The notes below the pieces were generated by a model, which had not been told where the DNA came from, ran no database searches, and saw only the letters and a program-made list of their open reading frames with translations. Position numbers and translations under genes: made by a program. DNA of 64,000 bases from a virus. Every line of letters begins with the position of its first letter. Within the stretch, counting starts at the first letter, position 1. This document shows positions 8,712 through 34,773 of this stretch, piece by piece. Where the stretch lies: positions 43,582 to 107,581 of the IMG/VR virus record IMGVR_UViG_3300042923_001092, one strand, 5' to 3'.

Positions 8712-9629
8712 GTGTCTAAATACATAATTGGTGGTGGAATAACTGGATTAATAGCTTCTTTTTATAATCCAGACTATCGAATTATAACAGATAAAATTGG
8801 TGGCCAGATGGCTGCTAATACTGCTGGTCCTAGGATTCTTGAAGTAAATGAATATTCAAGAATGTTTTTAAAAGATTTGGGATTTGAAAACGTAAATACT
8901 AAATTTGCTAAGATTGGATATAAAGTAAGAGGCAAGATAGTAGATTCTATAAGTAAAAGCTTAAGAAATAAATATTATTTAAAATCAAGATGCCTTGATG
9001 ACGCCAATTTAATACCAAATTCTATAATGTCAGACGGAAAGAATACTATTGAATATTTTGATATAAGTTGGGATGAAATAATTGAAAGACTTATATCAAA
9101 TATCAAAAAGCCAGTAATTAATAAAATAACTTCAATAGACACTGAAGAAAAAATAATCGTTTTAGATGGTCTTCCATTTAGATATGAAAAATTAATATCG
9201 ACAATTCCTGCACCGGCTTTTTTTAAAGCATCTAAGCTTAATCCAGAAAAAGAGCTAAAATTTATTCAAAAGGTATTTATCATAGTAGATAGTAGTACCA
9301 TTGATATGAGAGAATATGAATATATTTATTATCCAGAATGTCAATACCCATATCATAGGATATCGAAAGTTGGTTCTAATAAGCTTTCGATAGAATTTAC
9401 TACTAATGAAGATACATCTAAGATACTTAATTATTGGAAACATATTTCCATACAAAATATAATTATACCAATAGGTCAGATACAATCTGGAATGATTAGT
9501 AAAGTTAAAGATATATCTTTTTTTGGCAGATACGCTTGCTGGGATCATGATTTAAAAGTTGATGATGTTATTAGGCAGAGCATAGACTATAATGATACAG
9601 AAAGGAAAAATATTTATGATGGAATATAA
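8712..9629 (+). CDS. FAD/NAD(P)-dependent oxidoreductase, amine-oxidase/UDP-galactopyranose-mutase-like
   Basis: A GTG start follows AAAGGAGG. The N-terminus is a Rossmann dinucleotide-binding motif (GGGITG, residues 7-12), followed by the loop GGQMAANTAG, typical of FAD enzymes of the protoporphyrinogen oxidase/UGM group. A C-terminal motif FFGRYACWDHD resembles the second FAD-contact region. The 305 aa length is short for the family. It is the first gene of the cluster with a dUTPase-like/HAD enzyme, a dNMP kinase, an AKR and a radical SAM enzyme, so a role in making a modified nucleotide is plausible but unproven. Confidence 0.75.
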   Translation: MSKYIIGGGITGLIASFYNPDYRIITDKIGGQMAANTAGPRILEVNEYSRMFLKDLGFENVNTKFAKIGYKVRGKIVDSISKSLRNKYYLKSRCLDDANLIPNSIMSDGKNTIEYFDISWDEIIERLISNIKKPVINKITSIDTEEKIIVLDGLPFRYEKLISTIPAPAFFKASKLNPEKELKFIQKVFIIVDSSTIDMREYEYIYYPECQYPYHRISKVGSNKLSIEFTTNEDTSKILNYWKHISIQNIIIPIGQIQSGMISKVKDISFFGRYACWDHDLKVDDVIRQSIDYNDTERKNIYDGI

Positions 9630-10569
9630 AGATAAGCTTAAACATATATGGGATGTTCAATTAGACTTTAATAAAAAGTTTTATAAGTCTAAAATAGGTA
9701 AAGATATGAATGATATGACTATGGAAGAAAAGGTATTTTGGTCAAAAAATCAATTACTTTCTATAGTTAAAGAATCTATGGAAGTACTTGATGAAATTCC
9801 TAATTGGAAGGAGCATAGAAACATAGCTACAGAATTTATACCATCAAATCTTTTTGAAGAGATTATCGATGTTAATAAGTTCTCTTTAGGGCTTGCTCAA
9901 ATATGGGGTATGACTTTCGAGGATTATTATAAAGAATACCTTAGAAAAAGTTGGGTTGTTGATCAGCGTTGGACTCAAGAACATGACTTAAAATCTATAA
10001 ACGAAGACGATAAGATTGTTGGAATAGATATTGATGGAATATTAGGAGATTATCCAAAATGGTTTCTTAAATTTGTTTATGAAAAAACTGGTAAAGAGTT
10101 TAATACACTTGAGCAAGTTAAAAATTGTTTCGGTACTTCGGAATATGAGGGATTAAAGTCTTTATACAGACAGTCAGGATGGAAAGCAACAATGCCTGTT
10201 TGTGAACATGCATCTGAATTTACAAATCTTCTTCATAACAAAGGATATAAAATAATAATACTTACAGCTAGACCTTATAAGGATTATTATACTATTTATC
10301 CGGATACATTACAATTTCTTAAAGAAAATGAAATATATTTTGATGCTATAATTTGGGATGAAGAAAAACATTTAAGGATTATTAAAGAATTTCCGAAAAT
10401 GCTTTTTATGATTGATGATACACTTGAAGTGGCAGAAGCAGTTGCAGCAGAAGGATATGTTGTATTTTTAAAACAGACAGAGCCTTTTGTCAATATCGAT
10501 CCTAAATTTTGGGATAAAATTATTACATTTAGTGACCTATTAGAAATACCCGAAAAATGGAATATATAA
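9616..10569 (+). CDS. Fusion: all-alpha dUTPase-like NTP pyrophosphatase + HAD 5'(3')-nucleotidase
   Basis: Start ATG 9616 is chosen over 9592 because AAAGGA lies 10 bases upstream. It overlaps the previous gene by 14 bases. Residues 1-115 look like the all-alpha (MazG/dUTPase-2) fold: metal-binding Glu53 and Glu56 in the KESMEVLDEIP helix, EEIIDVNKF (81-90), then YLRKSWVVDQRW. Residues 130-317 are a HAD phosphatase: DIDGI (Asp138, Asp140), ILTARPY, and FMIDDTLEVAEA. One polypeptide could convert a dNTP to dNMP and then to the nucleoside, removing an unwanted pyrimidine from the pool. The substrate is not determined. Confidence 0.78.
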   Translation: MMEYKDKLKHIWDVQLDFNKKFYKSKIGKDMNDMTMEEKVFWSKNQLLSIVKESMEVLDEIPNWKEHRNIATEFIPSNLFEEIIDVNKFSLGLAQIWGMTFEDYYKEYLRKSWVVDQRWTQEHDLKSINEDDKIVGIDIDGILGDYPKWFLKFVYEKTGKEFNTLEQVKNCFGTSEYEGLKSLYRQSGWKATMPVCEHASEFTNLLHNKGYKIIILTARPYKDYYTIYPDTLQFLKENEIYFDAIIWDEEKHLRIIKEFPKMLFMIDDTLEVAEAVAAEGYVVFLKQTEPFVNIDPKFWDKIITFSDLLEIPEKWNI

Positions 10570-10645: not shown

Positions 10646-11092
10646 ATGGCTATTTTATTTTTTGTAGGTGTTGATAAAACAGGTAAAACTACTTTATTAA
10701 AAAATGTTTTAAAAGAAACTAATCGTCATATATGTATTGATAGATTTACTCCATGTCAAGTAGTATACGGAAGAATACATGATAAAAAAGACACACCAAA
10801 AGTTAAAGAATTTAGAGAATTAGAAACATTTTTACGATATTCTCCTATACCAGCTGCATTTGTTTATGTGTCAGCAGAGACAGATATGATAATAAAAAGA
10901 TTTAAGCAGCATGATGAAAAAGATATAGATATTAGTCAAATAAGTATTGTTAAAATTTTATATGATCAGTACTTAAGTTCATCTCCGCTACCATGTTTAC
11001 GTATTGATACAACCGGAGACTCAATAGAAAAATGCACTAATACGATTATCGAGTTTGCAGATAGGCTTGATAGAAAGGAGATTTATATATGA
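10646..11092 (+). CDS. P-loop deoxynucleoside monophosphate kinase-like protein
   Basis: The P-loop GVDKTGKTT (residues 8-16) is the thymidylate-kinase type. IDRFTPCQVVYG carries the DR motif that binds the nucleotide, and VSAETDMIIKRFKQHDE resembles the LID region. At 148 aa it is shorter than cellular TMK, and a second, complete TMK is at 30439. It may therefore phosphorylate a special or modified dNMP. Its stop overlaps the AKR start (ATGA). The kinase fold is firm and the substrate is inferred. Confidence 0.78.
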   Translation: MAILFFVGVDKTGKTTLLKNVLKETNRHICIDRFTPCQVVYGRIHDKKDTPKVKEFRELETFLRYSPIPAAFVYVSAETDMIIKRFKQHDEKDIDISQISIVKILYDQYLSSSPLPCLRIDTTGDSIEKCTNTIIEFADRLDRKEIYI

Positions 11093-12105
11093 AAGCAAAA
11101 TTAGGGCTTGGTGGATATTTTACAGACACCAAAGACAATCCAGCTTCCATTATAAGATATGCTTATGATTTTGGTGGAGTAAGATTTTTTGATACTTCAC
11201 CAGTATATGGAACTAGTGAGCAAATTTTTGGACATGCACTAAAAGATTATCCAAGAGAATCTTATGAACTTTCAACAAAAACAAAAGCTAAAACTGTTGA
11301 AGAGCTTCATTCTTCGTTTTTACAAAGCTTATTTAATCTTAACACTAATTATATAGATATGTATTTTGGTCATTCAGCTATAGATGATGATAATACATGG
11401 AAAGATTTTCAAAAGATAATAAATGAACTTTTAAGATTAAAGTCAATCAATTATATCAAAAAGATTGGAGTATCTGGACATTCTGTTTCTGCAGCTATAA
11501 AAGCGATAAACAGTGGTTTGATTGATGTTATAATGGTACCTCATTCTATAATGTACAGAAAATTTGAAGGAGTGATTCAATTAGCTAAGTCCAAAAACAT
11601 AGAAGTAATTACTATGAAAAACTTTGCTAGTGGAATATTGCTTGGTGGTCCGGATACTAATGAATATAAAAAAGACGTATCAATGCAGGATATTATCAAT
11701 TTTTCTTCTTATTGCGGAGATATAATAATACCAACTCCAAGATCTATTAATCAATTTAAAGAAATAAGTAACTGTTATCTAAATGCAGCTGAACTTAATA
11801 CATCTAAATTAATTAATATAGAAAGTAAGATAATAAAACATCTTGGCACGGATTTTTGCAGATTTTGTAATGAATGCAGACCCTGCCCTAAGCATGGATG
11901 GCAAATGTCACAACCAAGCATCTTAAAGGCAATGTTATATCAGTCAAAGTTAGGAATAGATGGAAAAGAAAGATATTCTAATTTTGCTTATAATGTAAAT
12001 CATTGCGAAGGATGTGATAGCGAATGCTCGCATATGTGCCCTTTTGGTATAGATATTAAAGAAAAAATGCAAAATGCACACAACATTTTTACAGGAGGAA
12101 AATAA
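11089..12105 (+). CDS. Aldo/keto reductase with C-terminal 4Fe-4S cysteine clusters
   Basis: The TIM-barrel AKR tetrad is recognisable: Asp35 (FFDTS), Tyr40 (VYGTSE), Lys64 (STKTK) and His95 (FGHSA). A C-terminal extension holds two Cys groups, CRFCNECRPCP and CEGCDSECSHMCPFG, as in the AKR subgroup that carries ferredoxin-like iron-sulfur clusters. It would be an NAD(P)H-dependent carbonyl reductase with electron-transfer centres. It is translationally linked to the kinase before it and abuts the radical SAM gene, a partner that itself needs electrons. The substrate is unknown. Confidence 0.85.
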   Translation: MKAKLGLGGYFTDTKDNPASIIRYAYDFGGVRFFDTSPVYGTSEQIFGHALKDYPRESYELSTKTKAKTVEELHSSFLQSLFNLNTNYIDMYFGHSAIDDDNTWKDFQKIINELLRLKSINYIKKIGVSGHSVSAAIKAINSGLIDVIMVPHSIMYRKFEGVIQLAKSKNIEVITMKNFASGILLGGPDTNEYKKDVSMQDIINFSSYCGDIIIPTPRSINQFKEISNCYLNAAELNTSKLINIESKIIKHLGTDFCRFCNECRPCPKHGWQMSQPSILKAMLYQSKLGIDGKERYSNFAYNVNHCEGCDSECSHMCPFGIDIKEKMQNAHNIFTGGK

Positions 12106-13173
12106 ATGGATGTAGTTAATGAAAAAGCAGCTAAAAAAATATTGCCATATGTAAAGTCAATAGAAAATGGTACTATAAAAGGCCCAATTTCGTTGCACTT
12201 ATTAATAACTGACTTTTGTGTTAATAAGTGCAACATGTGTGGACATTGGAAGACTAAATGCAAAAAAAGTTTAAGTCTTGATGTTATAAAAAACATTTGG
12301 TCAGAGATGAACGAAAATGATTGTGAATCAGTTTGTCTTACTGGCGGAGATCCAATTTTGCATCCAAATTTTGAGGAAATATTAGATCTTAAAAGAAATT
12401 TTGACCTTGGTGTTATTTGTACCGGAAATTTTAATCCAAAATTTGATTTTGAAAAGCTTTCCAAACTTAAATGGTTACGCTTTTCTATTGATTCTTTAAA
12501 CCTTGATAGATATATGGAAATAAGAGGTTTGAGTAATTTATATTCAGTTATAATTCCTAATCTTATAAAGGCTAAGAATTATATAGATCAGGTCGGTATA
12601 AATTTCACTATACAAAAGAAAAATATTATGGATGTAAGAGATATTGTAAAATTTGCTTATAATGAAGAAATTTATAGACTTATGATATATCCAATGCATG
12701 GTGATAGTGACTTATGCTTAAATTCTGAAGATATTAAAGTTGTTTTAGAACAATTAAGAGAAGTAATTAAGTACGGATTTCATAAAGAAATACCAGAAAA
12801 TAATATTGTATTTTTGTATCAAAGTTTAAAAGCAGCTTTAGAAAAAGACACTGAAGTAAGAAAAGCAGTTTTTGATTATTCTAAATATCCTTGTATTATA
12901 AATAAAATACATTTATCTGTAGGTTCTGATGGAAATGTATTTCCTTGTGAAATGATTGCAGATGATACAGATGCATATGGAGAAAGAGATTTTTGGGATA
13001 CACATTCACATTATAATAGTCTTGGAAACGTGAATGAAGAAAGTTTGATGAAAATATGGAAAAATAATTTTGACAACTCCTTTTGTTCCGGAAAATGTGA
13101 AAATTGCTTCAGTAGATATTTACCTATTAATAAAGCTTATTATGAAAATATTGGAAAGAGGATATTTATATGA
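12106..13173 (+). CDS. Radical SAM enzyme with SPASM-type C-terminal domain
   Basis: The radical SAM cluster motif CxxxCxxC is Cys38, Cys42, Cys45 (CVNKCNMC), preceded by the TIM-barrel strand LHLLITDF. The GGDP motif (LTGGDPILHP) binds SAM methionine. The C-terminal part (CIINKIHLSVGSDGNVFPCE... CSGKCENCFSRY) has the SPASM/twitch Cys arrangement for auxiliary clusters. The ATG directly follows the AKR stop. SPASM enzymes act on peptides, sugars or nucleotides. The neighbouring nucleotide enzymes favour a nucleotide or sugar substrate, but a peptide maturation role cannot be excluded. Confidence 0.87.
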   Translation: MDVVNEKAAKKILPYVKSIENGTIKGPISLHLLITDFCVNKCNMCGHWKTKCKKSLSLDVIKNIWSEMNENDCESVCLTGGDPILHPNFEEILDLKRNFDLGVICTGNFNPKFDFEKLSKLKWLRFSIDSLNLDRYMEIRGLSNLYSVIIPNLIKAKNYIDQVGINFTIQKKNIMDVRDIVKFAYNEEIYRLMIYPMHGDSDLCLNSEDIKVVLEQLREVIKYGFHKEIPENNIVFLYQSLKAALEKDTEVRKAVFDYSKYPCIINKIHLSVGSDGNVFPCEMIADDTDAYGERDFWDTHSHYNSLGNVNEESLMKIWKNNFDNSFCSGKCENCFSRYLPINKAYYENIGKRIFI

Positions 13174-13538: not shown

Positions 13539-14585
13539 ATGGAAAACTCAATTCAAAAAATAAATGAATTAAGAAGTGTTATGGGAACTTTACCAGATCA
13601 GGACCCGCAGCTTAAAACTGAATTTATTAAGGGCGTTACTGGAATTTCAGTTGAACTTATCGGAACAGTAGAAAATCCGTATAAGCCGATGTTTATATTA
13701 GGGACTACATGCTGGGGTAAGAAAGTTAATAAATGGGAAGAAACATTACCCGAACACAGGTTTGAAGTAGTAAAGGCGGCTTTAAGGGGTCAGGCATTAC
13801 CTCTTGCATTGGAAACTCCTCAGTTTTCATTTGCTATTGAAGGTCCATCAAGAGCGGCATTTGATCAGATTGCAAGAGCAAGGCTTGGTGTTGTATTTTC
13901 TGCCAGAGGTATGAGAGATAATAATTGGAAAGACGCTTCAATTCGTATTCCGACTTCTTTGTGGCCTACAAAAAAAGAAGATATTTTGCATGATGAATAT
14001 CTTCTTGATGGCAAAAGAAGCGATGAACATAATAATGCTTATATAAAGGTTGAAAACTTTAAAAATATAGAAATTACAATGCTTGAAGTAAAACAACTTT
14101 ACGCTGATATTGTAGATGTTGGAAAAGGTTCTTGGCAGGCTGCAAGGAGCGTATTGCCTTTATATGTAGTTTATGGTTTTTCAATGGGAATTAATTTCCA
14201 AGCATTAAGAAGCTTATGCAGCTCAAGAATGAAATTTTGCGAAATGGAAGATACAGTTGCAGTAGCATGGCTTTTAGCAAAAGCAGTATCTGAAAAATTC
14301 CCTTTACTTGGTTCTTATTTAAGACCCGGATGTGACTGGTCTGGTAAATGTCAGTACCATAAAGCTTATTCTTTATCTGAAATGTTCGGTTGTTTATTTA
14401 AAGAATGTGGCAGAAACGAATGCACCGATACAAATGATTATGCAGAATTTAATGAAACATGTACAAATTATCGTGATCTTGAGGAACAGCTTGGTATTCA
14501 TATTACAAGGCCAAATGAGTGGCCTAAATTTGAAAATTTCGATGATTTGTCGGATATAGATAAAGCATTATTTATGCAGGATTAA
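13539..14585 (+). CDS. Divergent ThyX-superfamily protein (altered active site)
   Basis: Residues 91-127 align with the ThyX signature region: LETPQFSFAIEGPSRAAFDQ is the counterpart of EHxxFTFxIEGVSRAxxHQ, but the RHRX7S motif has become RAR at 113-115 and the catalytic-region His is Ala114. The C-terminal block QAARSVLPLYVVYGFSMGIN followed by LRSLCSSRMKFCEMEDTVAVA matches the ThyX dUMP-binding helices. A Cys-rich tail (PGCDWSGKC, KECGRNEC) is extra. At 348 aa it is larger than the 234-aa canonical ThyX at 18998, so it is unlikely to be the ordinary dTMP synthase. I infer a flavin-dependent pyrimidine-modifying enzyme. Codon use suggests strong expression. Confidence 0.82.
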   Translation: MENSIQKINELRSVMGTLPDQDPQLKTEFIKGVTGISVELIGTVENPYKPMFILGTTCWGKKVNKWEETLPEHRFEVVKAALRGQALPLALETPQFSFAIEGPSRAAFDQIARARLGVVFSARGMRDNNWKDASIRIPTSLWPTKKEDILHDEYLLDGKRSDEHNNAYIKVENFKNIEITMLEVKQLYADIVDVGKGSWQAARSVLPLYVVYGFSMGINFQALRSLCSSRMKFCEMEDTVAVAWLLAKAVSEKFPLLGSYLRPGCDWSGKCQYHKAYSLSEMFGCLFKECGRNECTDTNDYAEFNETCTNYRDLEEQLGIHITRPNEWPKFENFDDLSDIDKALFMQD

Positions 14586-14587
14586 TT

Positions 14588-14629
14588 TTAAGGTGTGGCT
14601 ATAGATTAATAGTTTATACCACACCTTAA
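14588..14629 (+). terminator. Hairpin terminator after ThyX-like gene
   Basis: TTAAGGTGTGG pairs with CCACACCTTAA around a 20-base loop. No long T run follows. The right arm overlaps the next, longer inverted repeat, so the two hairpins exclude each other in part. Confidence 0.6.
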
Positions 14630-14696
14630 TTAACTTATTATAGAAGATTAGTCGCTTTATTTTAATAGTATTAATCTTCTATAATAAGTTAATTAA
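14626..14696 (+). repeat. Perfect 25-bp inverted repeat in the leader of the ThyA-like gene
   Basis: Bases 14626-14650 are the exact reverse complement of 14672-14696, separated by 21 bases. It lies between the terminator hairpin and the ribosome site of the gene at 14721. It could be an RNase III site, a transcription switch or a protein-bound palindrome. No promoter is visible inside it. Confidence 0.85.
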
Positions 14697-14720
14697 AATA
14701 AAGAAATGGAGAAATAGATT

Positions 14721-15269
14721 ATGCATGGATTAGGTTTAAGACAAATGATAGAAAATCTTGAAACTTTTATAGTTGAAAAAGGAAAACCTGTTGTTGTAGA
14801 CAATCAGGGAACTATAGAAGTTTTAAATCATAGTTTCAATATTACTTATAATAGTATTATTGATATTGAAGATATACAAAAGCATATGAAAGATTATTAT
14901 GACGTAAATGGTATTGATTATTCTAAAATTGAGGAACTTGAAAAAAATGAATATTCGTTAATCGAAAACGAACTTTATAGCAAGTTTGCTTTATTCAATG
15001 ATGATATTCATTCAAGAAGGGTCCTTTGGTCTGATGATTGCTGTATCAGTTTAATTCATTATCTCATCCGGGATAAGAAAATCTATTGCTTTGTTCATTT
15101 AAGAAGTTCTGACATCGTAAATAAGTTATTTTCTGATCTATTTTTAATTCATAAGATAACAAGGCAACTTCAGGATGATCTTGATATTAAAGATGTTAAT
15201 ATTTGTGTAAACGGTCACAGCATGCACAAGCTGGTATTAAACAATATGAACAAGTGTAAAAATGAGTAA
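14721..15269 (+). CDS. Short ThyA-superfamily protein, predicted dCMP-type hydroxymethylase-like
   Basis: The order of ThyA landmarks is kept in only 182 aa: SRR (98-100, phosphate contact), Cys108 in DDCCISLIHYLIRDKKIY aligned with the catalytic PCxxxxQFxVRDGKL cysteine, RSSD (128-131), and a C-terminal VNGHSMHKL replacing GSAHIYxxH. At the place of the dUMP-selecting Asn177 of E. coli ThyA there is Asp139 (KLFSDL), the change known from dCMP hydroxymethylases. The usual folate-contact Gln is His113. It sits between the divergent ThyX and the DNA polymerase. Family membership is likely. Cytosine specificity and hydroxymethylation are inference. Confidence 0.72.
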   Translation: MHGLGLRQMIENLETFIVEKGKPVVVDNQGTIEVLNHSFNITYNSIIDIEDIQKHMKDYYDVNGIDYSKIEELEKNEYSLIENELYSKFALFNDDIHSRRVLWSDDCCISLIHYLIRDKKIYCFVHLRSSDIVNKLFSDLFLIHKITRQLQDDLDIKDVNICVNGHSMHKLVLNNMNKCKNE

Positions 15270-18200
15270 GTTCTGCCCAAAAATTAATGGCCCTGTAGTC
15301 TATCTCGATTGCCTTGAGTGTGACTACAGGGTTTGTGTTAAAGGAGGAAAAGAATTGGCAAAGATAATAAAAAAAATAAAACAACCAGAACAAGAGGTAC
15401 CAGACAAAAAGGTAAAAAAAATTAAATCGTCTGAAATAGATGAACAAGTAAAAGAAGCTAAAAAAAATATTCGACAAAAATCAGTACCTGTTATGGAGTC
15501 AAAATATTCTGGTATAATAAAACCAAGAAATGTGGCTATCCCAACTCGAGACCTAATTCAATTTATTCCGGAACATATACATACAGATTATTCAACAAAA
15601 GATGCTGCTATGTCTATTGATGAATATATTGAGTCACTTAAAGAAATGGGATTTAAAGGTGGTACAATTACTGAACATGGAAATATGTCAAGTTCAGTAA
15701 AGTTTTATAAAGCTATGAAGGCTAATGGGCTTAAACCTATTTTAGGTAATGAAATCTATACGGATGATAATATCGAGCTTAAAATAGAGGCTTCATTAGA
15801 AAGGTCAAAGAGGAAAAAGGACGATGAGGCAGCAGAAGGTGGATATTTGGATGATGAGTATGGTCATCTTGTAGTATTAGCTCCAACTAATGAAGCTTAT
15901 AATGAATTATTATTAACTACTGCTAAAGGATTTAGAGATGGTTTTTATAAGAGGCCAAGAGTTACACACGAATGGATTTTAAATGAAGCTTCAAAACACC
16001 AGATTACCACTACAGCCTGCCTTGCATCGAAGTTTAATTATTATATAAGGTGCGGCCAGGATAAGGAGGCTAAACAGCTTCTTAGTGATTATAAGTCAGC
16101 TTTTGGTGATAGGTTTTATGCTGAACTTCATTTTAATGAATTAGAAATACAAAGATATTGTACTAATAAGTTATTAGAATTTTGCAAAGAACTTAAAATA
16201 CCTTGGATGATTGGTCTTGATGCACATTATGCAAAAAAAGAACATGCTGAGTATCATGACTATATGAAAGATATGTTTTATAAGGGTTCATTATCTAAAC
16301 CATCTTCTTTAAGATATAATACTAGAGAATTATATCTTAAAAATTCAAATGAAGTTCTTCATTCAGCACTAAAATGGGACTATGGAATTGATCAAAAAGA
16401 TATAATAATTGGATTGAATAGAACTAATGAATTATACGATAGAACAACATTTGAAATGGAAATGGGAAAGTTAAGGTTTCCAAAATTTAGTAATGATCCT
16501 AATTTTGATCCAGTAGCAGAGTTAAAAAAGAAATGTATAAGAGGATATAATAAAAGAAAGAAACAAGGATTACTTCCTGCACCGGGATATGCAGATCAAG
16601 ACTATAAGGATAGGTTTAATAAAGAATTTCCAGTAATAGTTAGTAAAGGTTATGCTGATTACTTTTTAATAGTTTCTGAATATACAGATTATTGTGTACA
16701 GACTGAATTATTTAAAGGTCCCGGAAGAGGTAGTGCTGCAGGTGCTTTGATTTCTTGGTTGCTTGATATTACTAAGATTGACCCTATAAGATATGGACTA
16801 TTCTTTGAAAGGTTTCTTAATGAAGAACGTGCTGATCCACCAGATATTGACCTCGATTTTGATTCTGAAAGAAGATTTGAAATTGAAGAACTTTTAATAA
16901 GAAAAAATGGTCCAGAAAAGGTTGCTCACATTATGTCATTTGGTACATGGGGATGTAAAAGTATTCTTGGAGAATTATCAAAAGTATTTGAACTTCCTTG
17001 GGGTGTTGTAGATAAACTTAAAAAATTATGTAATGATGATCAATCGCTGCAGGAAAATATTGATAGAATATTAGGAATAAAGCCAGTTAAAAAGATAAAG
17101 AAAGATGGTACAGTGCAAGAAATATTTGAAATACCATCTCCAGATATAAAGGAGTTTATTGAGAATAATGAAAAATTCTTTACTGTATGTAAATTTTTTG
17201 AAGGTAAAGTTAGGAACTATTCAATGCATGCTTCTGGTGTAGTTGTAACTCCAGGACCTATGGAAGAACTTGCTCCAATAAACAGAGCTTCTGGGCAAAT
17301 AGTTACTGGTCTTCAAGAAGGTGGAGATATAAGAGAAATATCAGATATAGGGTTACTTAAATTTGATATTTTGGGTCTTAATAACTGTACTATAGTTAAT
17401 AGGACTTTAAAGTCTATTAAAAGAAGAAAAGGCATAACCATTGATATAGATGCTATTGATCTTGAAGACGATAATTTATTAGAAAGATTTAGAAAAGGGC
17501 ATACAACGGGAATATTTCAGTTTGAGTCTACCGGTATTACTAAATTTATGAAAGATATTCAGCCACAAAGACTTGAAGATTTAATTATAGTTAATGCTGC
17601 TTATCGACCAGGTACATTAAGAGCTGGTGGTGTTGATGCTATCATAGAAAATAGGCATTCAGATAATATTGATTATATGCATCCAGCTATTGAAGAAGTT
17701 TTAGGTCCAACATATAATGTTTTAGTTTATCAAGAACAGCAGATGGCTTTAATGGCTCAAGTTGGTGGATTTACAATGGTTGAAGCTGATAAATCTAGGA
17801 AGACTATTAAGTTAATTAATAAAGCTTCTACTGCTTCACCAGAACAGTTAAAGAAATTTTATGATATGATCGAGCATTTTAAGCAAGGTGCTCATGAAAA
17901 AACTGGACTCTCGCATGAAAAATTACAAAAGCTTGTTGATGCAATGGCTGCGGCTGCTGACTATTCATTTAATAAATCTCATAGTTGTAGTTATGCTATT
18001 ATAGCAATGCAGGATATGTATTTGAAGCATTATTATCCAGCTGACTATGCAGCTGCTTTCCTAAGTAGGACTAAAAATGAAGAAAAGAAAGGTAAAGCAG
18101 GACATAAGACTGGGGAGAACAAAATTGAAAAATATGTAAAAATGGCAATAATTGAAATGGATTTAAACATTGCTCCTCCGGATGTTTCAATTTCTGGAGT

Positions 18201-18951
18201 AGATTGGATACCTAAAGACGATAAGACTATAATACCTTCATTAACTTTTATTAAAGGTGTTGGTGAAGCTGCAGTTCCTCAAATTGTTAAGCACCAGCCA
18301 TATGCCACTTTAGAGTCATTCTTTGAATGTGATATGGATTGGAGGTTAGTTAATAAAAGGGTTGTTGAAGCATTAATCCAGACAGGGTCTTTTAACAATC
18401 TATATCCGTATAGGAAAACATTATTGGAGGTATATACAAAGTGGAATGCTGCTGGTAAAAAGAACTTTTCAAAAATACTTGAAAAAGTAGAAAATGAAAT
18501 GGGTCAAGTTGATATAGACTTTGACGAGGGAATGATTATTGAAAAAGAATTATTTGGATTTTATTTCAGTGCTAATCCATTAGACAAATATAAAGAAATT
18601 GTAAAAGAAAGAGAAATAAAAGAAGTAAGTGACTTAGCAAAAGGTAAGAAATGGAAAAAAGGGACACTTTATGGAATAATTACTAAAGCATTTCCATATA
18701 AGATTGCAAAAGGTAACATGTGTTTTGTAGATATACAAGGAAAAGATGAAACAAAAGCAAATATTACAGTTTGGCCAGAAATATATGAACAATATAAAGA
18801 TATTATAAAAGAAGGAAATGTAGTCGCTATAAAAGTCAAACCCGGTAAAGGTAAAAATGATGAACCTTGTTTTTATGTTGATGAAAGCGACGAGCGAAAG
18901 AAGGTAATCTTAATGGAGCAATTATTAAAAATTAAATCAAAGCAACGTTAA
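15262..18951 (+). CDS. dnaE: DNA polymerase III alpha subunit (DnaE-type replicase)
   Basis: The N-terminus carries a Cys knuckle (CPKINGPVVYLDCLECDYRVC) and a Lys-rich linker, then the PHP domain (HIHTDYSTKDAAM; TEHGNMSS). The C-family palm follows: PGRGSAAGALISW and PPDIDLDFDSE with the catalytic Asp pair, then the KSHSCSYAIIA region, HhH and a C-terminal OB domain (GTLYGIITKAF). The 1229 aa length fits DnaE. ATG 15262 overlaps the previous gene but has a weak ribosome site. An in-frame TTG at 15355 has an ideal AAAGGAGG and would remove the Cys knuckle. Conserved-looking Cys spacing favours the longer form. Confidence 0.93.
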   Translation: MSKFCPKINGPVVYLDCLECDYRVCVKGGKELAKIIKKIKQPEQEVPDKKVKKIKSSEIDEQVKEAKKNIRQKSVPVMESKYSGIIKPRNVAIPTRDLIQFIPEHIHTDYSTKDAAMSIDEYIESLKEMGFKGGTITEHGNMSSSVKFYKAMKANGLKPILGNEIYTDDNIELKIEASLERSKRKKDDEAAEGGYLDDEYGHLVVLAPTNEAYNELLLTTAKGFRDGFYKRPRVTHEWILNEASKHQITTTACLASKFNYYIRCGQDKEAKQLLSDYKSAFGDRFYAELHFNELEIQRYCTNKLLEFCKELKIPWMIGLDAHYAKKEHAEYHDYMKDMFYKGSLSKPSSLRYNTRELYLKNSNEVLHSALKWDYGIDQKDIIIGLNRTNELYDRTTFEMEMGKLRFPKFSNDPNFDPVAELKKKCIRGYNKRKKQGLLPAPGYADQDYKDRFNKEFPVIVSKGYADYFLIVSEYTDYCVQTELFKGPGRGSAAGALISWLLDITKIDPIRYGLFFERFLNEERADPPDIDLDFDSERRFEIEELLIRKNGPEKVAHIMSFGTWGCKSILGELSKVFELPWGVVDKLKKLCNDDQSLQENIDRILGIKPVKKIKKDGTVQEIFEIPSPDIKEFIENNEKFFTVCKFFEGKVRNYSMHASGVVVTPGPMEELAPINRASGQIVTGLQEGGDIREISDIGLLKFDILGLNNCTIVNRTLKSIKRRKGITIDIDAIDLEDDNLLERFRKGHTTGIFQFESTGITKFMKDIQPQRLEDLIIVNAAYRPGTLRAGGVDAIIENRHSDNIDYMHPAIEEVLGPTYNVLVYQEQQMALMAQVGGFTMVEADKSRKTIKLINKASTASPEQLKKFYDMIEHFKQGAHEKTGLSHEKLQKLVDAMAAAADYSFNKSHSCSYAIIAMQDMYLKHYYPADYAAAFLSRTKNEEKKGKAGHKTGENKIEKYVKMAIIEMDLNIAPPDVSISGVDWIPKDDKTIIPSLTFIKGVGEAAVPQIVKHQPYATLESFFECDMDWRLVNKRVVEALIQTGSFNNLYPYRKTLLEVYTKWNAAGKKNFSKILEKVENEMGQVDIDFDEGMIIEKELFGFYFSANPLDKYKEIVKEREIKEVSDLAKGKKWKKGTLYGIITKAFPYKIAKGNMCFVDIQGKDETKANITVWPEIYEQYKDIIKEGNVVAIKVKPGKGKNDEPCFYVDESDERKKVILMEQLLKIKSKQR
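15291..15331 (+). repeat. Perfect 10-bp hairpin inside the DnaE 5' end
   Basis: CCCTGTAGTC pairs exactly with GACTACAGGG around 21 bases. It lies just upstream of the AAAGGAGG that would serve the alternative TTG start at 15355. It could tune which start is used. Confidence 0.6.
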
Positions 18952-18997: not shown

Positions 18998-19702
18998 ATG
19001 CGAGTTATTAAACCATCGTTTGAAATTAAACGCAATTTGAGTGGGGAAGAAATTTTAAAGAATATTGAAAGAGCTGGCAGGATTTGTTATAAATCCGAAG
19101 ATTTAATAACTTCAGATTCTGCAAAAAAATTTGTAAAAGGCCTTTTAAATAGAGGCCATGAAGCAATGATCGAACATGCTTTTGCTACCGTTATTATAGT
19201 TTGTGATAGAGGAGTTTCTCATGAAATTGTTCGCCATAGAGTTGCATCATATGCTCAGGAAAGTACAAGATATTGCAATTATGGAAAAGAAAAACATGAT
19301 CAGGAATTGAAATTTATTGATATAGGACCAGTTATTGATAGTAAAATTGGTACTACAGTAAAAGATTCAAATGGTGAAAATGTTCTGGTAACAGGTGATT
19401 TAGCAGCTTCATGGATTATAAGCTGGCTTGATTCAATAGCTGATTCAGAAATAGCATACATGAATATGGTAAATTCAGGATGTCCTGCAGAACTTGCAAG
19501 ATCAGTTCTTCCTAATTCAATAAAAACAGAAATAGTTGTCACAATGAATTTAAGAGAATGGCGACATTTCTTTAAGCTTAGGGCTATAGGTACAACGGGA
19601 AAACCTCATCCTCAAATGGTAGAAATAGCTAAACCTTTATTAAGGGAAATGGCTGAATACATACCAGTTGTATTTGACGATCTTATTGAATTGATTAGTT
19701 AG
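18998..19702 (+). CDS. thyX: Flavin-dependent thymidylate synthase ThyX (canonical)
   Basis: The signature RHRX7S is intact: Arg79, His80, Arg81 and Ser89 in VRHRVASYAQESTRY. The C-terminal PAELARSVLPNSIKTEIVVTMNLREWRHFFKLR block is the usual dUMP/FAD-binding element. At 234 aa the length is normal. It makes dTMP from dUMP with methylene-tetrahydrofolate and NADPH, supplied by the dCMP deaminase at 33612. It shows that the other ThyX-like protein (13539) is not needed for ordinary dTMP. Confidence 0.95.
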   Translation: MRVIKPSFEIKRNLSGEEILKNIERAGRICYKSEDLITSDSAKKFVKGLLNRGHEAMIEHAFATVIIVCDRGVSHEIVRHRVASYAQESTRYCNYGKEKHDQELKFIDIGPVIDSKIGTTVKDSNGENVLVTGDLAASWIISWLDSIADSEIAYMNMVNSGCPAELARSVLPNSIKTEIVVTMNLREWRHFFKLRAIGTTGKPHPQMVEIAKPLLREMAEYIPVVFDDLIELIS

Positions 19703-30221: not shown

Positions 30222-30458
30222 ATGGCAAAATATTGTATTCATCCAGGAGTTACTATTAGCAAGAATGATGGTCAATTTCATTATATTTCTTCATCAAGAC
30301 TTATAAGTTTATATGGGGTAAATCCATCCGATTGTATTATAAGTTCATGTGATGAAAGAAACCCCAAAAGATATCCAGAAAATATAATTCATTTATATCC
30401 AGATTATAAAGGTAATTATGATTTAAAGGAGGTTTTACGTGAAAATAATAGTCCTTGA
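30222..30458 (+). CDS. Hypothetical protein, 78 aa
   Basis: Resembles small phage proteins with an N-terminal HPGVTISKNDGQFHYISSSRL segment. Function unknown. It overlaps the TMK start by 20 bases, and its last codons contain the TMK ribosome site AAAGGAGG. Confidence 0.72.
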   Translation: MAKYCIHPGVTISKNDGQFHYISSSRLISLYGVNPSDCIISSCDERNPKRYPENIIHLYPDYKGNYDLKEVLRENNSP

Positions 30459-31059
30459 AGGGATTGATAAATGTGGAAAAGCTACACAAACAAAAGAATT
30501 AGCTTTAAGATTGAGTCAAGCAGGATTTAAAACGCAAGCATCTGAATTTCATAGATATGATACACAGACCGGAAAAATGATTCAAGATTGGCTATTTGGA
30601 AAGTTTGAATGTGATACTTATACTATGGAATTAATTATGGCTGCAGACAAACAACTTCAACAGTATTGGTTTAATGAACTTGAAAATCAAGGATATGACT
30701 TTCTTATATTAGATAGGTATACATTAAGTCAAGAGATTTATGCAACATATAAAAAAGTAAATCAAATATGGTTATATTCTATAATGACATATTTGAAAAA
30801 ACCTTATGCTGAAATATTAATAGATATTCCTGCTGAACTAAGTATGTCCAGAAAACCCAAATATGGTACCAATAATAATATTCAGGATGACAGGCATGAA
30901 AAGGATTATAATTTGCTAAACAGCGTTAGAGATCTTTATTTAAAGGCTTGTAATCATAATCATTTCGATATAAAACGGACAATAATTGATGGAACTCAGA
31001 CAGTTGACAATGTCAGCGATGATATTTGGAATTATGTTAAAAATTTATTCAAAATATAA
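30439..31059 (+). CDS. tmk: Thymidylate kinase
   Basis: GTG 30439 follows AAAGGAGG. P-loop EGIDKCGKATQ (7-17), FHRYDTQTGKMIQDWL, the DR(Y) motif ILDRYTLSQ, and DIPAELSMSRK before a short LID are all TMK features. At 206 aa it is full length. It phosphorylates dTMP made by ThyX. The phage therefore has two dNMP-kinase-like genes (see 10646). Confidence 0.92.
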   Translation: MKIIVLEGIDKCGKATQTKELALRLSQAGFKTQASEFHRYDTQTGKMIQDWLFGKFECDTYTMELIMAADKQLQQYWFNELENQGYDFLILDRYTLSQEIYATYKKVNQIWLYSIMTYLKKPYAEILIDIPAELSMSRKPKYGTNNNIQDDRHEKDYNLLNSVRDLYLKACNHNHFDIKRTIIDGTQTVDNVSDDIWNYVKNLFKI

Positions 31060-33611: not shown

Positions 33612-34097
33612 ATGGAAGAAAGAATAAGCTGGGATAATTATTTCTTATTAATTTCTAAAGTAGTTTCCTCTAGAGCAACATGTTTTAGTGAACCTAAAGG
33701 AGCAGTAATTGTCGTAAATAAGAATATTGTATCTACCGGATATAATGGGGCTCCTAGCGGTATTAAAGATTGTAAGTATGGATATAAAGAGTGTAAAAAA
33801 AGATCATTAGGTTATGGTCATGGTACTGGGCATCATATATGTCTCGCGTCACATGCTGAAGCAAACGCAATTGATCATGCAGCTAAAAATGGAATTTCTA
33901 TAAATGGTGGCACGCTATATTGCACTCATAAACCATGTTCTGAATGTGCAAAACACATTATTAATTCCGGAATAATAAGAGTAGTTTATATTAATGAATA
34001 CGAATCAAACGCTTTTGAACTTTTTAATGAAGCCGGTATTGATTGTGTAAAGTCTAAAGATTTTGATTTAATTGAAATGTTAAATCAAATCAAATAA
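33612..34097 (+). CDS. dCMP deaminase
   Basis: Zinc site His81-Ala-Glu83 (SHAEANAI) and Cys109-x2-Cys112 (KPCSEC), with the N-terminal substrate-binding GYNGAPSG. Additional Cys/His residues (Cys54, Cys61, His70) match the ComE/T4-type second zinc site. It converts dCMP to dUMP for ThyX and so lowers dCMP. The start directly follows the previous stop. Confidence 0.92.
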   Translation: MEERISWDNYFLLISKVVSSRATCFSEPKGAVIVVNKNIVSTGYNGAPSGIKDCKYGYKECKKRSLGYGHGTGHHICLASHAEANAIDHAAKNGISINGGTLYCTHKPCSECAKHIINSGIIRVVYINEYESNAFELFNEAGIDCVKSKDFDLIEMLNQIK

Positions 34098-34113
34098 ATT
34101 AATGGAGGTAATT

Positions 34114-34773
34114 ATGGAAGTTGTAAAGAATTTTAGTGTAGTAACTCTTTGTGGAAGTACTAGATTTAAAGCGGAGTTTGCCGAAGTAGCAAAAAGGCTT
34201 ACTTTAGCTGGAAATGTTGTTTTGATGCCAATATGTTATGAACATGCAGATGGTCTTGTTTATTCGGATCAAAATATTAAAAAGATGTTAACTAAGATGC
34301 ATGCTCAAATGATTGATATGGCAGATGCTATTTTTGTCATAGACCCAGGTAACTATATTGGAGAATCAACAAAAGAAGAAATAGAATATGCCATCAGAAA
34401 TAACAAAAAGATAATTTATTATTCAGCTATTTTTGATCAGAATGATGTAGATAAAATGTATAAATCAGGTAAAAGTCCTACTGAAGGAGGTTGCTGGTTT
34501 TGCAGTAACACTAAGAACGAAACTGAAAATTTATTATTTTCATTTGAGTTTGATACTTATGTACATGCTTCTTGTGTGCTTGAAAAAGAAAAAGAAGGCA
34601 ATGGAGAAGCAGAAATAATTGCAAAAGAACTTAATCTTCCGGATATAAAAGCTGACGTAAAGCATGAATGCCATTGCTGCAGACGCAAAGAGGATTGTAC
34701 AGAAGATGAAAAAGATTATGGAACTCAGCACGATAATAATGAATGCTTTGAAGATGAAGAGGAGGATGTTTAA
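34114..34773 (+). CDS. Nucleoside 2-deoxyribosyltransferase-like protein with Cys-rich tail
   Basis: ATG 34114 is chosen because ATG 34102 is part of its ribosome site. Residues 1-115 match the nucleoside 2-deoxyribosyltransferase-like/DUF4406 Rossmann-type fold: LCGSTRFKAEFAEVAKRL, ADAIFVIDPGNYIGESTKEEIEYA (with the catalytic-type Glu). The C-terminal 100 residues have CWFC...HASC and CHCCRRKEDC groups and an acidic end, probably a zinc-binding module. It may cleave or exchange nucleobases. Activity is not established. Confidence 0.75.
   Translation: MEVVKNFSVVTLCGSTRFKAEFAEVAKRLTLAGNVVLMPICYEHADGLVYSDQNIKKMLTKMHAQMIDMADAIFVIDPGNYIGESTKEEIEYAIRNNKKIIYYSAIFDQNDVDKMYKSGKSPTEGGCWFCSNTKNETENLLFSFEFDTYVHASCVLEKEKEGNGEAEIIAKELNLPDIKADVKHECHCCRRKEDCTEDEKDYGTQHDNNECFEDEEEDV

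Follow-up and report, generated by a model that had tools for sequence, protein, structure and literature searches.

A candidate phage nucleotide-modification module containing a divergent ThyX and a minimal ThyA-fold protein

The gene cluster at 8.7–15.3 kb of the window, which is the whole 64,000-nucleotide stretch analysed here (bases 43582–107581 of a 107,581-base IMG/VR virus record), is predicted from sequence comparison, with a probability of about 0.6, to be a pre-replicative module that makes a modified pyrimidine for incorporation into DNA. Two of its genes, encoding a ThyX-fold variant (THYX2) and a minimal ThyA-fold protein (THYAS), had been proposed as a pair of candidate base-modification enzymes by a model that read only the letters (the sequence-only reading). 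Their recurrence within a wider module supports the nucleotide-modifying role, and the unit comprises five to seven genes rather than a pair. By analogy with phages T4 and RB69, the most likely product would be a C5-modified pyrimidine deoxynucleotide, probably derived from dCMP; confidence in any named product is lower than confidence in a DNA-incorporated modified pyrimidine.

Results

A ThyX-fold protein with an altered active site and a cysteine-rich tail

THYX2 (13539..14585, + strand, 348 aa) was proposed to retain the ThyX scaffold, and this is borne out both by its match to Pfam Thy1 (PF02511; E 3.8e-12; 46.8 bits, above the cut-off of 24.8) and by its AF2 model (pLDDT 80, pTM 0.81), for which the best Foldseek matches are all ThyX, led by T. 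maritima ThyX 4gtc (E 4.7e-8) and with PolB also among the matches. The NCBIfam thyX equivalog (TIGR02170) scored 27 bits, under its cut-off of 87.9 and far below the score of a true thyX, and almost no sequence identity to the canonical ThyX at 18998 was detectable (blastp E 0.16). Searched by sequence against the PDB, the single protein gave no match and its profile a chance hit only.

The RHRX7S motif is absent as originally read, and R113-A114-R115 (13875..13883, +) replaces the RHR of canonical ThyX. Among the nine single-gene forms of THYX2, R113 and R115 are invariant, and position 114 is A in seven, T in two and H in none. The alignment further indicated that G124-M-R-D-N128 (13908..13922, +), a G-x-R-D-N loop with one extra residue, replaces the substrate-recognition peptide S-x-R-Y. 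R126, D127 and N128 are kept in 9/9 single-gene forms, and an invariant RDN signature replaces the catalytic-loop residues in the uncultured set. Profile alignment with the ThyX of actinophages placed R113/R115 at the RxR pair, R126 at the substrate-loop Arg, and R203 and R230 at the two downstream Args, all of which THYX2 retains from canonical ThyX together with the fold. Tyr Y91 of ThyX acts in methylene transfer (PMC8316439), and because THYX2 carries Asp in its place, plain methylation is an unlikely reaction for THYX2, the exact chemistry not being predictable from sequence. Asp109 additionally occupies the position of a phosphate-binding Arg of ThyX, and owing to these two replacements a loss of flavin or nucleotide chemistry is possible.

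A further departure from canonical ThyX is the Cys-rich C-terminal extension (C265...C308; 14331..14462, +), a putative metal site that had been noticed from the letters and is conserved among relatives, with C271 and C308 present in 9/9 single-gene forms; in the AF2 model this tail is of low quality, pLDDT falling below 50 in places. No other module protein is as well conserved as THYX2, which shows 63% identity between phages whose THYAS proteins share 21–25%. One ThyX variant (L013:7986-9431) carries an intein-like Hint insertion (Hom_end_hint, E 2.8e-6) at a conserved KFCE site just before the C234 position, consistent with this being a conserved site in the protein.

Reciprocal division of the ThyX-variant active site between two subunits

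The ThyX variant is encoded by two tandem genes in ~15 distinct viruses, each gene lacking the active-site half that its partner retains. Subunit A carries R126, D127, N128 and R203 in 15/15 sequences, and R113, R115, R230 and the Cys tail in none. Reciprocally, subunit B carries Q110, R113, R115, R230 and all five tail Cys in 16/16 sequences, and R126 and R203 in none. PolB, and by homology ThyX, binds the nucleotide through Phe79, Arg82, His83, Arg86 and Arg193 of one monomer, to which another monomer adds Ser96', Arg98' and Arg166' (PMC5003785). The A/B partition matches this two-monomer dUMP site, A corresponding to the primed half and B to the unprimed half. This pattern speaks for selection on the site to bind a nucleotide, and for a multimeric enzyme in nature.

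A minimal ThyA-fold protein with a predicted cytosine-type active site

Profile and structure comparison placed THYAS (14721..15269, +, 182 aa) in the ThyA superfamily, as the sequence-only reading had done. The single sequence gave a weak thymidylate synthase (TS) match (T4 dCMP hydroxymethylase, E 2e-4), and the 13-member family profile matched TS-fold structures with E values of 2.6e-14 for AfhB, 3.8e-13 for T4 dCMP hydroxymethylase and about 5e-12 for E. coli TS, the lead of AfhB over the T4 enzyme being only narrow. The AF2 model is confident (pLDDT 90) and matched 9iqu in Foldseek (E 7e-8). Structure prediction, which had been suggested as a check, returned a ThyX fold for the 13539 protein and a TS fold for the 14721 protein.

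R99, C108, R128-S129, D139 and H169 are invariant in 13/13 THYAS relatives. In the alignments C108 (15042..15044, +) is the equivalent of the TS nucleophile Cys146 (Cys148 of T4 dCMP hydroxymethylase), and by its spacing D139 (15135..15137, +) falls at the cytosine-specifying position, N177 in TS and D179 in T4. The distances along C108-R128-D139-H169 (20, 11 and 30 residues) equal those in E. coli TS (C146-R166-N177-H207). As regards the folate-binding elements of TS (Glu58, Trp80 and the C-terminal segment), alignments read by eye showed a shortened stretch between the first strand and R99 and an end of the protein soon after the His. The L004 module contains two mini-ThyA paralogues (L004:7333-7989 and L004:11097-11687), the first of which still matches Thymidylat_synt (E 1.7e-11).

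Asp at TS position 177 underlies cytosine selection in T4 dCMP hydroxymethylase and MilA, and in a genome-phenome study it marked phages with modified cytosine (PMC6400193, PMC5175136, PMC8670742). The nearest solved relatives of THYAS are proteins of phage HY126, labelled dCMP hydroxylase AfhB / flavin-dependent monooxygenase in their PDB entries, with T4 dCMP hydroxymethylase close behind; two genes downstream of AfhB, HY126 encodes a match to KIN, the kinase of the window module (E 4e-12). In RB69-like phages a TS-family enzyme makes 5-hydroxy-dCMP, which is then arabinosylated (PMC13390438). Because of the Asp at the 177 position, the relatedness to AfhB and the T4 enzyme and the KIN match near AfhB, THYAS most likely acts on a cytosine nucleotide, and dCMP is indicated. 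The initial reading had noted that phage ThyA relatives hydroxymethylate dUMP or dCMP, and for the mini-ThyA it is the dCMP side that Asp139 and these relatives favour.

Recurrence of the module beside replicative polymerases

A set of 23 non-redundant uncultured-virus loci was retrieved with THYX2 as the query, so that all recurrence counts are conditioned on THYX2; most of the carriers are contigs from metagenomes and may be incomplete. FADOX (8712..9629, +) is an FAD/NAD(P)-Rossmann oxidoreductase-like protein with a GxGxxG start, recognized by profile homology, and 16 members compared with Pfam at E<0.01 matched none of its families. It forms one superfamily with FAD2 and aligns with actinophage oxidoreductases (phrog_8720; hhalign prob 98.7, E 2e-16), and one or other of the two oxidoreductases is present in 22/23 loci. 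The gene at 9592..10569 (+) encodes a dUTPase_2/NTP-PPase-like all-alpha domain fused to a HAD phosphatase of the NT5C, pyrimidine deoxynucleotidase type. The window protein matches dUTPase_2 weakly (0.007), NTP-PPase phrog_173 at 1e-5 and HAD phrog_415 at 1e-13, and its relatives match NT5C (1e-5) and, as a stand-alone protein in L004, dUTPase_2 (1e-16). The HAD deoxynucleotidase recurs in 22/23 loci, where it mostly has a dUTPase_2-like domain at its N terminus or as a separate partner; the locus without oxidoreductase and HAD is L032, whose contig ends ~2.3 kb upstream of THYX2.

KIN (10646..11092, +), a thymidylate-kinase-like P-loop kinase (GVDKTGKT), occurs in 23/23 loci and was assigned through Pfam matches of its relatives, 15/16 of which hit Thymidylate_kin at E<0.1 (best 5.6e-12). 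THYAS was found in 20/23 loci, being undetected in L048, L054 and L026 although THYX2 is present there, and an SDR of the RmlD/NDP-sugar-epimerase type in 14/23. Kinase and THYAS are fused into one protein in two lineages (L025/27/28/29/43 and L036). A different fusion, of a KIN-like and a uracil-DNA-glycosylase-like part, was seen at L018:5587-6540 (PF03167, E 1e-12) and apparently at L019:5728-6579 and L051:6852-7751, and stand-alone homologues lie nearby in L021 and L041. An aldo/keto reductase (AKR) with C-terminal Fe-S-like Cys motifs (11089..12105, +; Pfam 2.8e-25) and a radical SAM/SPASM protein (12106..13173, +; Pfam 2.6e-12 and 6.1e-8) were rejected as members of the module core, being found in the window and L003 only, and are regarded as local accessory genes.

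A DnaE-like replicative DNA polymerase, assigned by reading the sequence of its ORF (15262..18951, +), overlaps with its start the end of THYAS, which agrees with the earlier placement of both genes upstream of the phage polymerase. In most of the 23 loci THYX2 has large polymerase-type ORFs as neighbours, DnaE-like in many and PolA-like in L004, L009/L048, L012/L051 and L054. Across the 23 loci, pool-trimming, nucleotide-modifying and kinase genes are linked to replication genes, and this recurrence of dNTP-pool and dNMP-kinase-like genes beside a polymerase supports a nucleotide-modifying role. A search of the virus record for family-2 glycosyltransferases gave none. Elsewhere in the window, the phage encodes an 8-oxoguanine-DNA-glycosylase-like protein (1002-1835, +; OGG_N E 2.7e-25, HhH-GPD 2.4e-7), which is unusual in a phage and possibly tied to the repair of modified or oxidised bases, and a protein with a weak match to nucleoside 2-deoxyribosyltransferase/DUF4406 (34102-34773, +; E 0.007).

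A separate dTMP supply in the same phage

Three thymidylate-synthase-like genes do lie within 6 kb, the third being a fully canonical ThyX at 18998-19702, for which the scores (Thy1 144 bits, TIGR02170 131 bits) and the motif RHR-VASYAQE-S-TRY agree with the initial description. The whole 107.6-kb virus record holds no full-length ThyA and no ThyX-type proteins other than THYX2 and this canonical ThyX. Beyond the module, the genome encodes another dTMP-kinase-like protein (30439-31059) and, at 33612-34097, a dCMP deaminase. Since canonical ThyX, dTMP kinase and dCMP deaminase all lie outside the module, dTMP supply is covered in this phage. With a complete dCMP-dUMP-dTMP-dTDP route encoded, the module would therefore run parallel to dTMP supply. 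A canonical ThyX likewise accompanies the variant in the L003, L004 and L016 contigs; in 20/23 other THYX2 contigs, many of them fragments, no second, canonical ThyX was seen, and full-length ThyA was found in none.

A related block in cultured actinophages

The connection to cultured phages was reached only through structure search and neighbouring genes, since plain tblastn with THYX2 returned from cultured phages one weak archaeal-virus match and nothing else. Structure search led to mycobacteriophage Onyinye, whose block combines a FAD2-homologous oxidoreductase (E 6e-23) and a HAD protein (101 bits) with DnaE and a Cys-tailed ThyX. Homologous oxidoreductase, HAD nucleotidase, DnaE and Cys-tailed ThyX genes also form Troll4 gp61-gp68 (cluster D mycobacteriophage) and the blocks of its Gordonia, Microbacterium, Streptomyces and Nocardia relatives. 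Oxidoreductase, HAD and ThyX are arranged around DnaE in all five blocks read (Troll4, Rumi, P3.1, Gibson and Onyinye; the HAD of P3.1 was assigned on a tblastn match), and a FabG-type SDR is present in three (Troll4, Rumi and P3.1).

The oxidoreductase was found in 120 phage records (Gordonia 46, Microbacterium 36, Mycobacterium 26, Streptomyces 9, Arthrobacter 2, Nocardia 1). The Troll4-type ThyX was found in 107 (Gordonia 46, Microbacterium 36, Mycobacterium 22, Arthrobacter 2, Nocardia 1), to which the Onyinye/Gibson type adds 13 (4 Mycobacterium, 9 Streptomyces). Compared as genus counts, which include some phages under two accessions, the oxidoreductase and Cys-tailed ThyX totals agree exactly genus by genus.

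The module ThyX of the actinophages reads RQR or RSR for RHR, keeps a near-canonical substrate loop (S-x-R) and has a C-x5-C...C tail that is weakly alignable to that of THYX2. As in the uncultured loci, an SDR-type gene is present in some of these blocks; unlike the window module, they have no detected mini-ThyA, a ThyX loop nearer the canonical one and, in some, an added methyltransferase. The oxidoreductase-HAD-ThyX core thus occurs with and without mini-ThyA, and because THYAS is also absent from 3/23 uncultured loci, it is not the sole core enzyme. The methyltransferase-like gene is small (L067:10425-10955, Troll4 gp63; phrog_6636) and absent from the window module.

Two scans of 84,980 genomes found no bacterial or prophage THYX2 relatives, and because such scans rely on short conserved peptides, distant relatives could escape them. 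Literature searches returned no nucleoside analysis for any carrier phage, no ThyX-type DNA base modifier and no work on AfhB/HY126 by name; literature outside a 2013 NAR survey yielded nothing on DNA modification in cluster D phages. That survey, by Iyer et al., reportedly covers predicted base-modification systems and is possibly relevant; it may already mention the actinophage block.

Discussion

The sequence-only reading regarded a ThyX-derived modifier as something new, but for nucleotide modification by such an enzyme PolB is a precedent, this enzyme being a flavin-dependent UMP/dUMP C5-methylase of the ThyX type in polyoxin biosynthesis (PMC5003785). THYX2 would resemble PolB as a ThyX fold recruited to nucleotide modification, with an active site spanning two monomers, whereas PolB is near canonical ThyX, bacterial, without a Cys tail or A/B split, and unlinked to a phage polymerase. 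THYAS resembles AfhB (5-hydroxy-dCMP synthase of the RB69-like phage HY126; PDB 9iqu, 9iqc; PMC13390438) in its TS fold, its Asp at 177 and a nearby KIN-like gene; AfhB, however, has 238 aa and belongs to a phage with arabinose-supply genes, whereas THYAS proteins have 140–220 aa and are found with THYX2, FADOX and SDR. The T4 set of gp42, gp56 dCTPase and gp1 kinase parallels the predicted module pathway in pool trimming, dCMP C5 modification and a dNMP kinase, and in the catalytic Cys and Asp, but part of the TS folate-site region appears to be missing from THYAS. The T4 gp42 pathway is not known to have a ThyX-type member, oxidoreductase or SDR. The logic of the module resembles that of T4; its components do not.

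In the mechanism that we propose, the dUTPase_2-NT5C protein would trim the normal pyrimidine nucleotide pool to dNMP, and THYAS would then activate C5 of a cytosine nucleotide through Cys108, Asp139 selecting cytosine. THYX2, expected to bind flavin, would hold the pyrimidine nucleotide in a two-subunit site and perform or complete a C5 chemistry other than plain dTMP synthesis. The added group may be elaborated by the oxidoreductase, helped by SDR, AKR or radical-SAM enzymes in those modules that have them, after which KIN would phosphorylate the modified dNMP and the adjoining polymerase would incorporate the modified nucleotide; the incorporated base would probably shield virion DNA from host nucleases. 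A more specific proposal, to which we give somewhat less than even chances, is that the ThyX branch is a dedicated folate/flavin-type nucleotide modifier with a metal-binding Cys domain, sometimes an obligate A/B heteromer in which each subunit contributes a half-site, that together with the minimal ThyA-fold enzyme and the oxidoreductase makes an undescribed hypermodified pyrimidine, a related pathway being present in ~120 cultured actinophages.

THYX2 might instead be a divergent thymidylate synthase that supplies phage dTMP among ordinary nucleotide-pool genes. The retained Thy1 fold and the actinophage ThyX, with its near-canonical substrate loop, fit this reading, and because most other carrier contigs show no second ThyX, THYX2 could be the sole thymidylate synthase of those carriers. 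We nevertheless consider it improbable, given the additional canonical ThyX in the window and three further contigs, the RDN replacement in the catalytic loop of the uncultured set, and the fact that dTMP synthesis needs no SDR, oxidoreductase or TS-fold protein with Asp at 177. It is likewise unlikely that the module yields a small molecule outside DNA (a modified nucleotide, a cofactor or a nucleoside-antibiotic-like compound) directed against host defences or competitors. Such a role would fit the nucleotide modifications made by PolB (ThyX-type) and MilA (ThyA-type) in nucleoside-antibiotic pathways (PMC5003785, PMC5175136), as well as the RmlD/epimerase-type SDR and the window AKR and radical SAM proteins, which are common in small-molecule pathways; DNA precursors are favoured, however, by the tight linkage to replicative polymerases of two families, by a dNMP-kinase-like enzyme in every locus and by the dUTPase/deoxynucleotidase genes.

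Less probable still is a modified cytosine (5-hydroxy- or 5-hydroxymethyl-dCMP, as in RB69- or T4-like phages) made by THYAS and KIN only, with THYX2 as a catalytically altered partner or in some other step. The resemblance of THYAS to AfhB and T4 gp42, the KIN homologue in the AfhB neighbourhood and the THYAS-KIN fusions would be expected under it, but THYX2 surpasses THYAS in conservation and is present in the three loci where THYAS is undetected, and the complementary A/B site implies selection on the THYX2 active site. We therefore retain as the preferred reading a module that makes a DNA-incorporated modified pyrimidine.

If this reading is correct, a wide range of phages have turned ThyX chemistry away from making dTMP and towards modifying DNA bases, and the module would represent a novel family of enzymes and probably yield a base new to DNA. 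The two-gene ThyX, with one half of the active site on each subunit, is a clean natural experiment on a composite site. Because homologous modules occur in well-studied, culturable actinophages, including mycobacteriophages of cluster D, the prediction can be tested immediately; a modified base would matter for sequencing, for phage engineering and for resistance to restriction.
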